Positions 8,387 to 11,478 of a stretch of 48,396 nt of DNA are shown here, piece after piece (positions within the stretch are counted from its first letter, which is position 1; every line of letters begins with the position of its first letter). The position numbers and the translations under genes were made by a program. The stretch is from an uncultured Bacteroidota bacterium. Lineage in GTDB: Bacteria > Bacteroidota > Bacteroidia > Chitinophagales > Chitinophagaceae. The stretch is taken from positions 1-48,396 of the forward strand of contig CAIRTW010000191.1 of assembly GCA_903881585.1 (NCBI GenBank), given 5' to 3'. Under the pieces are notes generated by a model. It did not search any database and had not been told where the DNA came from. It was given only the letters and a program-made list of their open reading frames with translations.

Positions 8387-8506
8387 ATTAAATTGACATT
8401 TTTGTGAGCTTTGAATAAGCCTGTTAAATGGTGTGTAGGACGAATTGCATCTTCAGTTTTTTTAAAATAATTTCCTTTATTGATTGACGACAGATGAACT
8501 GAAATT

Positions 8507-8751
8507 CAGCATATGATGGCACCTTTTTATGCCGTAGATGCGAAACCCGAAAGTTTATTGGGAGACATGCAGCTAAACCGCTTGATAGGCTAAATAGCAG
8601 CAATGGTAGGCAGAAAACCAGTGCCATATTGGTGATTAGCGAACTGCGCTAACAGAGTAGAGCTATGTTTTGGCCGGCGGAGCCTTTGGCCAAAACTCGC
8701 ATTTCTTTTTGTTACTTTTTCTTTGGCGAAGCAAAGAAAAAGTAAGGTAAT
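8507..8751. repeat. yidC-flanking structured repeat, copy A
   Basis: This ~245-bp non-coding element recurs in diverged form at 11092-11361, on the other side of yidC and in the same orientation. Shared blocks include GCTAAACCGCTTGAT, ATGGTAGGCAGAAAAC, GATTAGCGAACTGCG, AACAGAGTAGAGCTAT and GGCGGAGCCTTT. It holds two hairpins. The first has arms GTTTTGGCC (8667-8675) and GGCCAAAAC (8688-8696) around the loop GGCGGAGCCTTT. The second has perfect 14-bp arms TTACTTTTTCTTTG (8712-8725) and CAAAGAAAAAGTAA (8732-8745). The rest of the 605-bp gap before yidC holds no gene I can support. The element could be a non-autonomous mobile repeat or a structured RNA. Confidence 0.8.
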
Positions 8752-8908
8752 AAGGGCTGCGATATATAAGACTGTAGCCGCAAGTGGTAAACTGGGCGCG
8801 ATAAATATGTAATAGGCGAATAGGTCAACACCACCCAAACATCGGTCATTAATAGGCGAAAATCACCGTTAATTAATCATTACCCCGGCACAATAACCCT
8901 AAATACGC

Positions 8909-8916
8909 TACCTTTG
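8909..8916 (+). promoter_or_regulatory. Putative -7 element of the yidC promoter
   Basis: TACCTTTG matches the Bacteroidota -7 consensus TAnnTTTG exactly and ends 19 nt before the yidC ATG. No clear -33 TTTG is visible about 20 nt upstream. Confidence 0.55.
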
Positions 8917-8935
8917 CACACATTTTTAACCTTTC

Positions 8936-10792
8936 ATGGATCGTAATCAACTTACAGGTTTTGCTCTTTTAGCCGCGCTGCTCATCGGATATTTCTTTTA
9001 TAATTCCCACGAGCAAAAGGTAATGACCGAGCGGAACAGGGCAGACTCTACTGCTCATGCACTTGCAAATCCCCGCCCGAAAATAGACAGCAGCCTCACC
9101 GTAAAAGCCGAAACAGCCCCGGCTGCCAACGACTCCGCGGCCGAAGCCCTCAGGAAAAGCCAGCCACCTGCTTACAATGGCACTAAAGAAATAGTGACGC
9201 TGCAGAACAAGAAACTGGCAATTCAGTTTTCAAGTAAAGGCGCATATCCTGTATCGGCAAACATTCTGCAATACAAAACTTACGATCAGAAACCACTTTA
9301 CCTGTTCAATGGGGATGGCAATTTCCTTGCCGCCACCTTGCCTTTCGACAATGGCCGCTCCACTGCTGATCTCTACTTTGCCCCGGTAATGAAGGACGAG
9401 CCAAACGGCGACAAAACCGTGGACTTTGTCGCAGACCTCGGCAGCGGAAAACGCGTTAACATCCGGTACACCCTCCCTGCAGATGACTATATGATGCGCT
9501 GCACCATATCGCTGGCCGGAATGCCCGCCGCAGCCATTCCCATCACCCTGCAGACCAAGGGCCTGAAGACCGAAAAAGACATTGCTTATGAGCGTGGTGG
9601 CGGTTCTGTTACTCAGGTCTATTACAAAAACAAGAACGGCGATGGTGACTACTTCTCCCTCCGTCCGGAAGAAAAGACACAGCACGACGACGGCACCTGC
9701 AACTGGGTAGGCTTCCGCAAACAATACTTCAGCACAGCCCTTATCTCCGATGATGGCTTTAGCCGCATGGACTTAAAGTTCGCAGCCAAAACCGATTCCA
9801 GTAAAGCCGATTCCAACGTAGTGGCGCAGTACCAGGCAAAGATGGAACTGCCGCTCAGGGCTGGTGGTAATGAGCAAACGGCATCACTGAAATGGTACAT
9901 AGGCCCAAACGATTTCCACACCTTACAGTCTTATAAGATCGGGCTGGAAGACATGGTGCCCCTCGGCTACGGTATCATGGCATTTGTCAAGTACATCAAC
10001 AGATACGCCCTCATACCCATCTTTTACTTCCTGGCCAGCTTCATCAGCAATTATGCCATTATCATTATGCTGATGACCATATTTATCAGGCTCATTCTGT
10101 CGTTCTTCACTTACAAGAGCTACCTCTCCAGCGCCAAAATGCGCGTACTGAAACCAGAGCTCGATGCTCTTCGCGCAAAGATCGGCGACGACCAGCAGAA
10201 ATTCAGCATGGAGCAGATGAAGCTCTACAAATCTGCCGGCGTGAACCCGCTCGGCGGTTGCCTGCCCATGGTGTTCCAGTTGCCCATACTGCTCTCTATG
10301 TACTATATGTTCCCGTCGTTCATAGAGTTCAGGCAGCAGCATTTCCTCTGGTGCAATGACCTCTCTACCTACGATAGCGTAGCCAACTTCGGCTTCACCA
10401 TACCATTCTATGGCGATCACCTTAGCCTCTTTACATTGCTCATGACTGCATCCAGCCTCTTCCTGGCTATCTACAACCGCAACATGACCCCGCAGGACCC
10501 TAATAACCCTATGATGAAGTACATGCCCTTCATCTTCCCCATTATCCTTATGGGCGTCTTTAACAAGATGGCTGCGGCACTTACTTTTTACTACACCTTC
10601 AGCAACTTATTGAGTATTGCCCAGCAATTCATCATCCAGAAATACTTCATAGATGAAAAGGCCATCCATGCCCAGCTGCAGGAAAACAAAAACAAACCCG
10701 TGACCCAATCAAAATGGTCGCAACGGCTCGAAGAAATGCAAAAACTCCAGGCCGAGCGTGCCAAAACCCCGCCAAGGATCAACAAGAAATAG
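8936..10792 (+). CDS. yidC: Membrane protein insertase YidC
   Basis: 618 aa, the normal Bacteroidota length. The protein integrates and folds inner-membrane proteins, alone or with SecYEG. An N-terminal membrane anchor (LTGFALLAALLIGYFFYN, residues 6-23) is followed by the large periplasmic beta domain (about 80-345). The conserved Oxa1/YidC core has transmembrane segments from about residue 360: ALIPIFYFLASFISNYAII, the amphipathic KMRVLKPELDALRAK coupling helix, GGCLPMVFQLPILLSMYYM, and MKYMPFIFPIILMGVFNKM with the following segment. A basic C-terminal tail (RLEEMQKLQAERAKTPPRINKK) fits ribosome contact. It is monocistronic here, without the rnpA/rpmH neighbours seen in other phyla. Both flanks carry copies of the same structured repeat. 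Confidence 0.97.
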   Translation: MDRNQLTGFALLAALLIGYFFYNSHEQKVMTERNRADSTAHALANPRPKIDSSLTVKAETAPAANDSAAEALRKSQPPAYNGTKEIVTLQNKKLAIQFSSKGAYPVSANILQYKTYDQKPLYLFNGDGNFLAATLPFDNGRSTADLYFAPVMKDEPNGDKTVDFVADLGSGKRVNIRYTLPADDYMMRCTISLAGMPAAAIPITLQTKGLKTEKDIAYERGGGSVTQVYYKNKNGDGDYFSLRPEEKTQHDDGTCNWVGFRKQYFSTALISDDGFSRMDLKFAAKTDSSKADSNVVAQYQAKMELPLRAGGNEQTASLKWYIGPNDFHTLQSYKIGLEDMVPLGYGIMAFVKYINRYALIPIFYFLASFISNYAIIIMLMTIFIRLILSFFTYKSYLSSAKMRVLKPELDALRAKIGDDQQKFSMEQMKLYKSAGVNPLGGCLPMVFQLPILLSMYYMFPSFIEFRQQHFLWCNDLSTYDSVANFGFTIPFYGDHLSLFTLLMTASSLFLAIYNRNMTPQDPNNPMMKYMPFIFPIILMGVFNKMAAALTFYYTFSNLLSIAQQFIIQKYFIDEKAIHAQLQENKNKPVTQSKWSQRLEEMQKLQAERAKTPPRINKK

Positions 10793-10862
10793 AACAGGGG
10801 CTAGGGTATATTAAGCATTGTCATACCGGTGGGAGGCATCTATACTTGCGATGTGGGCATTA

Positions 10863-10980
10863 TGCCAATTCGACAACTAAAGTTGGCAAGCCGGAAAGGC
10901 TTGAATGTGAATAGCCCCGGGCACAGCCAGGGGGTCTGCAATGTCCTATTAGCCAACCCGGGAAGGGTTAAGTGTGAGAG
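10863..10980. repeat. Multi-hairpin intergenic element downstream of yidC
   Basis: A chain of short inverted repeats: TGCCAA/TTGGCA (10863-10888, with CAACT/AGTTG inside), AAGCC/GGCTT (10888-10902), an imperfect CCCC...GGGG hairpin (10915-10933) and AACCC/GGGTT (10955-10969). Short linkers of similar form (TGAATGTGAATAG, TTAAGTGTGAGAG) separate them. The layout resembles dispersed GC-rich hairpin arrays seen between genes in Bacteroidota. No coding potential is convincing in 10793-11478. The first hairpins may also end yidC transcription, though no clean T-run follows. Confidence 0.6.
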
Positions 10981-11091
10981 ATGCACACGATAGCTGTATG
11001 ATTGCCGTTACTTGGTTCATCCCACCACATCGTTATACCAAATAGACTTTGAAAACACACTATAATATAGATGATAGCAGCGATAAAGCAC

Positions 11092-11361
11092 AGCCCATGA
11101 TGGCGCCTTTTTCCGCCGTAGAAACGAAAGACTAAAGCTTATGAAGAGTACATCTGCTAAACCGCTTGATGCAGCTAATCGGGAGCGATGGTAGGCAGAA
11201 AACTAGCGCCATATAGCTGATTAGCGAACTGCGGTAACAGAGTAGAGCTATTTTTTTTCCGGCGGAGCCTTTGAAAAAAAATCGCCTTTTTCTTTGTTAC
11301 TTTCTTGGCGCCTGTCCCGATTGTTTATATCGGGAGCGAAGCAAAAAGAAAGTAAGGTAAT
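11092..11361. repeat. yidC-flanking structured repeat, copy B
   Basis: This is the second copy of the element at 8507-8751, same orientation, about 270 bp. The first hairpin keeps the loop GGCGGAGCCTTT, but its arms are now ATTTTTTTTC (11250-11259) and GAAAAAAAAT (11273-11282): different bases, still fully paired. The second hairpin has arms TTACTTTCTT (11297-11306) and AAGAAAGTAA (11346-11355), again changed on both sides relative to copy A. Its loop contains an extra ~28-bp palindromic insert (TCCCGAT 11315-11321, ATCGGGA 11329-11335) that copy A lacks. Confidence 0.8.
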
Positions 11362-11478
11362 GAGAGCAGAATATGAGGGATTCTTTTAGTGTGTTATTAA
11401 TGTCTTCTATACAATAGCCGTTGTTCTTAGCGAAACATCGCAGCGCGTTAGGGGGACTAAACGGTATAAGAGGAAATT

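Follow-up and report, generated by a model that had tools for sequence, protein, structure and literature searches.

A mobile element beside yidC in a Chitinophagaceae bacterium, with a covarying pseudoknot and a putative parallel third strand

The gene yidC of an uncultured Chitinophagaceae bacterium is flanked by two similar structured repeats, which raises the question of whether they serve the gene or are copies of something that moves. The window analysed here is positions 1 to 48,396 of contig CAIRTW010000191.1 (GCA_903881585.1). A first-pass annotation described twin elements with common blocks at 8507-8751 and 11092-11361 and offered two mutually exclusive options, a mobile element or a structured RNA family. 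Sequence comparison confirms the twin repeat, and the two options do not exclude each other: the repeat is mobile, and its interior is structured and conserved. With a probability of roughly two in three, we read these as non-autonomous elements resembling miniature inverted-repeat transposable elements (MITEs), moved by a DDE transposase via their terminal repeats, the interior ending in a 3' triple-helix H-type pseudoknot. Dispersal of the copies, the ends of some of them, covariation in the stems P0, H1, S1 and S2, and a parallel third-strand match carry this reading.

A T-tract in parallel register with a hairpin arm, and a covarying pseudoknot

Immediately 5' of the second hairpin (stem S2) lies a T-tract, usually interrupted by one C and followed by G, whose sequence obeys a simple rule. 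For a right hairpin arm of the form A(p)G A(q), the tract has the form T(a)C T(b), and b equals q in 79 of the 81 copies parsed from the bacterium's genus (mean 30.8 and maximum 46 in 10,000 permutations); in 64 of the copies both a equals p and b equals q. The match is parallel: of 48 genus copies with unequal p and q, 46 are parallel and one is antiparallel. The 81 copies comprise 44 distinct haplotypes and were parsed from 92, the other 11 being cut by contig ends, carrying inserts or falling off the pattern; the rule fails in L071, which is antiparallel, and in L092_892, whose tract lacks a C. At the level of the order, where 33 of 52 copies could be parsed (in the other 19 the tract lacks a C or the pattern does not fit), the tract is in parallel register with the right arm in 31 (permutation mean 16.5, maximum 26), including 27 parallel and no antiparallel cases among 29 with asymmetric arms; L197 and L198 appear by eye to be mis-parsed and are still counted against the rule. 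Copies with a broken or shortened left arm (L039_486, L063, L073, L106) still have a tract that matches the right arm. Antiparallel pairing of tract and right arm, as competing hairpins, is possible with symmetric arms and is contradicted by the asymmetric copies. Pairing of the tract with a conserved AACAG upstream of H1 is favoured by the energy model and shows no covariation by eye.

The loop of the second hairpin pairs with the bases that directly precede the tract on its 5' side. Most genus copies form this stem, S1, as TCGCC/GGCGA; the variants found elsewhere are TGGCC/GGCCA, TGCCC/GGGCA, CCGCC/GGCGG, TGCCGC/GCGGCA, CTTGAA/TTCAAG and GTGGC/GCCAC. An S1 of at least 4 bp is present in 65 of 81 genus copies (counting as paired the mis-parsed L045, L046 and L111), against a shuffled mean of 52.7 and maximum of 59 in 2000 shuffles, and in 14 of the 27 order copies used, out of 29 distant ones, against a mean of 4.9 and maximum of 11. 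Both S1 and S2 covary, as a pseudoknot demands. Once S1 is formed, the structure is an H-type pseudoknot whose loop 1 is the T-tract, running across the S2 major groove, the predicted site of a triplex. Under Hoogsteen rules, pyrimidines that run parallel to a purine strand as a third strand form T(U).A-T(U) and C+.G-C, and loop 1 of the element matches the S2 purine strand in just this parallel sense, as in triple-helix pseudoknots of the H type; the match probably reflects a real triple helix. Neither the pseudoknot nor the third strand had been described in the first-pass annotation.

The paired stems were examined in three alignments, comprising 33 of 50 type-A copies (A1), 54 of 62 genus candidates (A2; eight with long inserts were left out) and 52 distinct order matches fitted to the covariance model (A3). 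Across the 54 cores of the genus, the paired share of cells is 96.3% (86.7% when shuffled), and 142 cells are changed on both sides (39.3 when shuffled; 0 of 500 shuffles as high). Among the 52 order matches, 92.4% of cells pair (67.2%), 371 are double-changed (107.8), and both-sided change occurs at 28 of 30 pairs; sliding the partner strand abolishes the covariation. H1 accounts for 78 double and 2 one-sided changes in the genus, and for 216 double and 0 one-sided changes in the order, where 30 of 460 cells are unpaired. The long-range stem P0 also covaries (GC 28, AU 5 at one pair).

Copies 1 and 2 of the window are 85% identical over 8589-8718 and 11174-11303 and 75% identical over an 80-nt 5' block. 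The constant loop of the first hairpin is indeed GGCGGAGCCTTT, which each copy contains once and which occurs nowhere else in the window; the loop alone is no proof, since allowing two mismatches gives three window matches, which is the chance level. The H1 arms differ with pairing kept, and in the second hairpin the C/G pair has moved on both sides together (TTTTTCTTTG/CAAAGAAAAA versus TTTCTT.../AAAAAGAAA), both as originally noticed. Together H1 and H2, the second hairpin, fold better than dinucleotide shuffles (z -4.10 for copy 1 and -3.18 for copy 2), with 0 and 1 of 200 shuffles, respectively, folding as well. The first estimate of extent was too short for copy 2, and the outer ends of copy 1 are undefined, its insertion lying within about 8391-8819. 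A TA stands at both ends of copy 2 (11034-11035 and 11467-11468); if this is a target repeat, the element proper is 11036-11466. The positions of all parts are given in Table 1.

Table 1. Positions of the two element copies and their parts in the window
Feature	Position	Strand	Sequence or remark
Copy 1, structured interior	8507..8757	+	P0, H1 and putative triple-helix pseudoknot; upstream of yidC
Copy 1 P0, 5' strand	8516..8522	+	ATGGCAC; pairs with 8621-8627
Copy 1 P0, 3' strand	8621..8627	+	GTGCCAT
Copy 1 H1 hairpin	8667..8696	+	arms around GGCGGAGCC+TTT
Copy 1 H1 arms	8667-8675 / 8688-8696	+	GTTTTGGCC/GGCCAAAAC
Copy 1 S1, 5' strand	8697..8700	+	TCGC; partner GCGA 8726-8729
Copy 1 loop 1 (L1), putative third strand	8702..8710	+	TTTCTTTTT; parallel match to AAAGAAAAA
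Copy 1 S2	8712..8745	+	TTACTTTTTCTTTG / CAAAGAAAAAGTAA; loop contains S1 3' strand
Copy 2, complete	11035..11467	+	ends ATACC...GGTAT
Copy 2 P0, 5' strand	11100..11106	+	ATGGCGC
Copy 2 P0, 3' strand	11206..11212	+	GCGCCAT
Copy 2 H1 hairpin	11251..11281	+	
Copy 2 H1 arms	11251-11259 / 11273-11281	+	TTTTTTTTC/GAAAAAAAA
Copy 2 S1, 5' strand	11282..11286	+	TCGCC; partner GCGA 11336-11339
Copy 2 L1, putative third strand	11287..11295	+	TTTTTCTTT; parallel match to AAAAAGAAA
Copy 2 S2	11297..11355	+	broken by palindrome CCCGATTGTTTATATCGGG (11316-11334) inserted in loop

A palindrome CCTGTCCCGAT..ATCGGGA occupies the identical spot of the pseudoknot loop in the window and at other loci (L031, L036, L039, L054 and more), in many haplotypes, and a second palindrome, CCTGCCTGCCGGCAGGCAGG or a near variant, lies between T-tract and S2 in L033, L054 and L112. 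Between yidC and copy 2, at 10820-11030, is a GC-rich repeat-like stretch (AATGTGAATAGCCCCGGG...CAGGGGG), by eye unrelated to the element.

Copies, ends and mobilisation

The repeat is dispersed and structured, its stems covary, no gene context is fixed and its insertions are polymorphic, in line with the mobile structured repeat of the first-pass annotation. Because the bacterium's own genome contains 12 model matches at E<=0.001, the window repeats are not a product of chance; BLAST gives 14 matches with copy 1 and 15 with copy 2 in this fragmented assembly (376 contigs), where several copies are at contig ends. Several are 96-99% identical over their common part with unrelated flanks; four have the 5' end ATACCAAATAG in common and three the 3' end GGTAT, and the sequences outside are unrelated. 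Matches are found in 23 of 35 genomes of the genus and, with model R1, in 37 of 147 sampled genomes of the family (32 of 100 genera), 29 of 248 of the order and 7 of 296 of the phylum; these three samples overlap, and strict filters make the counts lower bounds. In being short, dispersed and nearly identical within unrelated flanks, the copies agree with MITEs; those with two clear ends measure about 360-440 bp. No transposase is seen inside the copies, although 30 of 80 cores overlap a mechanically called open reading frame (ORF) of at least 90 amino acids.

With 60 further stretches, the genus set came to 97 cores, 92 of them distinct and 4 without arms; the 88 classed by regular expression consist of 50 of type A (with the P0 domain), 19 of type B and 19 others. 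Tandem series of copies occur in L054 (G033:C1), L099 (G031:C15) and L102 (G010:C16), with spacings of about 424, 212 and 800-930 nt. The pseudoknot unit also closes, on the 3' side, elements whose upstream modules differ, namely type B and a class in genome G128. Four Bacteroidota genomes that are more distantly related (L265, L266, L267, L269) have the unit with no H1 to be seen, and in L266 a CC in the T-tract is opposite GG in the arm. In a Pasteurella multocida record (three records matched) the pseudoknot occurs twice, inverted, near dapF; at L242 1625-2054, in the dapF/DUF484 intergenic region, the two inverted pseudoknots differ in their S1 and S2 sequences. Two of seven matched records of Burkholderia plasmids were read: the third-strand hairpin is present and S1 is not evident. 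One such hairpin, on a Burkholderia cepacia plasmid (L243 1496-1643), overlaps the start of the Rfam small RNA Bp1_684.

As the first-pass annotation had it, no named family is recognised at Rfam gathering scores: the window gives no match at cut-off, and the best E at the first element, 0.32, is chance-like. A BTnc060 match in L197 is on the opposite strand and far under the cut-off, and was set aside. At L187 1253-1297, a sub-threshold match to Acido-Lenti-1 RNA (32.2 bits versus 37) lies about 200 nt from an element. Sequence and concept searches of the open-access literature found no description of the pseudoknot-element motif. Phage carriage was also rejected, three patterns of H1 plus pseudoknot matching nothing in viral contigs; the exception is a prophage-like region of G128 (C3 270000-322000; L200-L202), which has RecT-, DnaB- and LexA-like ORFs by eye. 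Its 11 element matches are on the plus strand, with minus-strand matches overlapping them, and several lie just 5' of ORFs.

The clearest ends are those of genome G024, in which the 20-mer GGTGCAWTTCAAATTTTCGC occurs 17 times with up to three mismatches (reversed control, 0) and forms five inverted pairs around 356-383 bp, each at the place of a core match. In the sister genome G003, locus L224 is bounded on each side by the terminal repeat GGTGCATTTCAAATCTTC and contains a transposase, split over two frames, that matches NCBIfam ISKra4 (E 7.9e-55, 186 bits; curated cut-off 205); 17 of the first 18 bases of the 20-bp G024 repeat are the same as in the L224 repeat. An ISKra4 fragment in G024 adjoins one GGTGCAWTTCAAATTTTCGC-type terminal repeat; the pieces on G024:C449 had given a weak NCBIfam match (E 0.022) and no Pfam family, and the genome search later gave ISKra4. 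The best 8-bp flank matches are 8/8 at L224 and 8, 7, 6, 5 and 5 of 8 at the five G024 elements, against a null mean of 4.3 with 1 in 30 at 7 or more. Because L224 has the same terminal repeats and an ISKra4 fragment stands beside one of those in G024, these ends make trans-mobilisation of the G024 copies by an ISKra4-type transposase likely; only the G024 copies have terminal repeats in common with an autonomous ISKra4 element.

Ends of the window type, (A)TACC...GGTA(T) with TA outside, occur in the bacterium's own genome only at element copies (4; control 0), and the 5' end recurs in one G028 and one G020 copy. Window copy 2 and G028 locus L112 have short ends; the copies read in G009, G016 and G031 and the others read in G028 have no clear terminal inverted repeats by eye. 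At L038 and L110 of G003, element copies contain or adjoin a further inverted repeat of MITE-like kind (GTGACGTTGACGAAATAAATACCAC and relatives).

Competing readings of the repeat

Both window copies flank yidC in the orientation of the gene, and in the prophage-like region several copies are just upstream of co-oriented ORFs, as might be expected of a cis-regulatory RNA of yidC or adjoining genes. In six relatives, however, BLAST of the yidC-upstream region finds the flanks and no element; the unaligned gap between the flanks is 101 nt in G033 versus 466 here, and 25 nt in G020 versus 429 here. Neighbouring genes are likewise in mixed orientations: among 80 copies with flanks examined, 30 could be classed on both sides, as 11 up+/down+, 7 up-/down+, 7 up+/down- and 5 up-/down-. 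The option that copies would lie only beside yidC is not borne out, given these relatives and the dispersal of the copies; regulation of yidC is rejected on the absence from the same six genomes, a cis-regulatory role at any adjoining gene is very improbable, and the yidC neighbourhood is incidental to the element. Downstream of yidC in L152, L154, L155 and L156 is a conserved ATTAGGGGTAA stretch flanked by TTTC and GAAATG, followed by a terminator-like hairpin in three of the four loci; it resembles a structured leader or small RNA and is by eye absent downstream of yidC in the window.

The interior might instead work as single-stranded DNA, forming hairpins and an intramolecular pyrimidine triplex at the replication fork and recognised, as repetitive extragenic palindromes (REPs) are, by an HUH enzyme of the Y1 or RAYT (REP-associated tyrosine transposase) kind or by another single-strand enzyme. 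H1 arms are exchanged with virtually no G.T intermediates; both loops contain GCGNAGC (GCGGAGC, GCGAAGC), a motif that gives DNA mini-hairpins of unusual stability; DNA also forms stable triplexes of the T.A-T and C+.G-C kinds; and GTAG, in some copies GCAG, stands just 5' of H1 in most genus copies, as in REPs. Yet 30 Y1-transposase loci (the best match from each of 30 genomes, out of roughly 100 listed, with flanks of up to 1.5 kb) hold no element copy and one marginal profile match (E 0.4), and the copy-rich genomes G009 (17 matches) and G016 (8) give no Y1_Tnp match at E<=0.001, so that a RAYT/REP origin was set aside as the principal explanation. S2 accepts some G.U (20 of 652 order cells; 44 of 721 with looser parsing), TTAC opposite GTGA recurs in members of three families, and the clearest ends resemble DDE terminal repeats. 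These Y1 results also leave unsupported the suggestion in the first-pass annotation that a transposase or relaxase recognises the hairpin; where the ends are clearest, they are terminal inverted repeats held in common with an ISKra4-like insertion sequence (IS). The pseudoknot and the G.U pairs in S2 favour an RNA form, and the G.U-poor H1 and GCGNAGC loops a DNA form; overall we consider action as single-stranded DNA unlikely, if the strongest of the alternatives. A plain MITE, with a functionless interior and arms paired merely through template-switch repair of palindromes, would account for near-perfect arms free of G.U, for the ISKra4-like terminal repeats and for the other palindromes inserted in the loop. 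Template switching, however, produces inverted and not mirror repeats and leaves the parallel match of T-tract and right arm unexplained, as it does S1 covariation, and the interior is kept while ends vary between lineages; this explanation is improbable.

Several observations weigh against the MITE-like element with a triple-helix pseudoknot. Among the 23 copy-bearing genomes of the genus, ISKra4 matches are confined to G003 and G024, both under the curated cut-off; those of G003's own copies that were read lack the ISKra4-type terminal repeat; clear terminal repeats are found in some copies only; and a search for an autonomous IS with the window's own ends found none. H1 is nearly free of G.U (2 of 481 genus cells and 1 of 460 in the order), as would sooner be expected of palindromes at the DNA level or of template switching than of an RNA stem. 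Further pair types at the order level are weak (71 versus 64.1; 15 of 500 shuffles as high). Finally, the copies are related, so the permutation counts overstate their independence, and A3 was fitted to the model.

We nevertheless prefer the MITE-like element with its pseudoknotted 3' part. A DDE transposase would act on the terminal inverted repeats to move it, for the G024 copies most likely one of the ISKra4 family. The interior, read on the plus strand, would fold into P0, the hairpin H1 with its matched and freely exchanged arms, and the 3' H-type pseudoknot, whose T/U-rich loop 1 would lie in the S2 major groove and form about 8-9 parallel T(U).A-T(U) and C+.G-C triples. The fold would be made by the element's RNA, and the pseudoknot may protect or mark the 3' end of that RNA, by analogy with the triple helices of the eukaryotic element for nuclear expression (ENE) on transposon RNAs; 3' end protection, an aid to transposition and host factor binding are candidate functions. 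More tentatively, and as a possibility rather than an expectation, the elements may belong to a widespread bacterial class of mobile RNAs in Bacteroidota and at the Pasteurella and Burkholderia loci, whose long triple-helix pseudoknot would be an exonuclease-resistant 3' module and ENE counterpart, moved between different upstream modules and element ends.

Comparison with known systems

Three-way parallel covariation is a rare kind of sequence-only evidence for a triple helix, available here in many natural variants. If the fold is one of RNA, the element represents an uncatalogued bacterial class of triple-helix RNA spread by transposition; if of DNA, a mobile element selected for an intramolecular triplex. 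Either way it offers a natural mutation series for the third-strand recognition rule and a case of a mobile-element interior conserved better than its ends.

Like REPs and bacterial interspersed mosaic elements with their RAYTs, the element is multi-copy, and GTAG precedes its hairpin on the 5' side in the majority of genus copies; unlike REPs it is absent from the 30 Y1 loci examined and present in two copy-rich genomes free of Y1 matches, and it is about ten times longer and pseudoknotted. In Bacteroidetes, genes of subclass 2.6 are reported to be flanked by atypical structures (PMC6006769). The likeness to ISKra4-family MITEs, in a terminal repeat with 17 of 18 bases as in L224 and 8-bp flank matches in some copies, is confined to the five G024 elements, whereas elsewhere the ends are different or cannot be recognised, and the structured interior is by eye without counterpart in the L224 IS sequence.

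With triple-helix H-type pseudoknots the element has in common the order of parts (S1 5', pyrimidine loop 1, S2 5', S1 3', short loop 3, S2 3') and a loop 1 parallel to the S2 purine strand. Telomerase RNA and the riboswitches SAM-II and preQ1-II are major-groove triple-helix H-type pseudoknots with this order. The element differs in its longer S2 (13-14 bp), in having a fold deduced from covariation and in being a dispersed repeat with no fixed gene context; its putative triplex of 8-9 triples is longer than theirs. SAM-V is described with the same order of parts and a parallel loop 1 (PMC6061858).

Like the ENEs of plant and fungal transposon RNAs, the element places a U-rich third strand on an A-rich helix within a transposable element. 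ENEs employ the poly(A) tail of their RNA and contain no pseudoknot. That of Copia93/Evade is reported to support the RNA stability and mobility of this transposon (PMC12501189). The hosts of ENEs are eukaryotes, whereas the element is bacterial.

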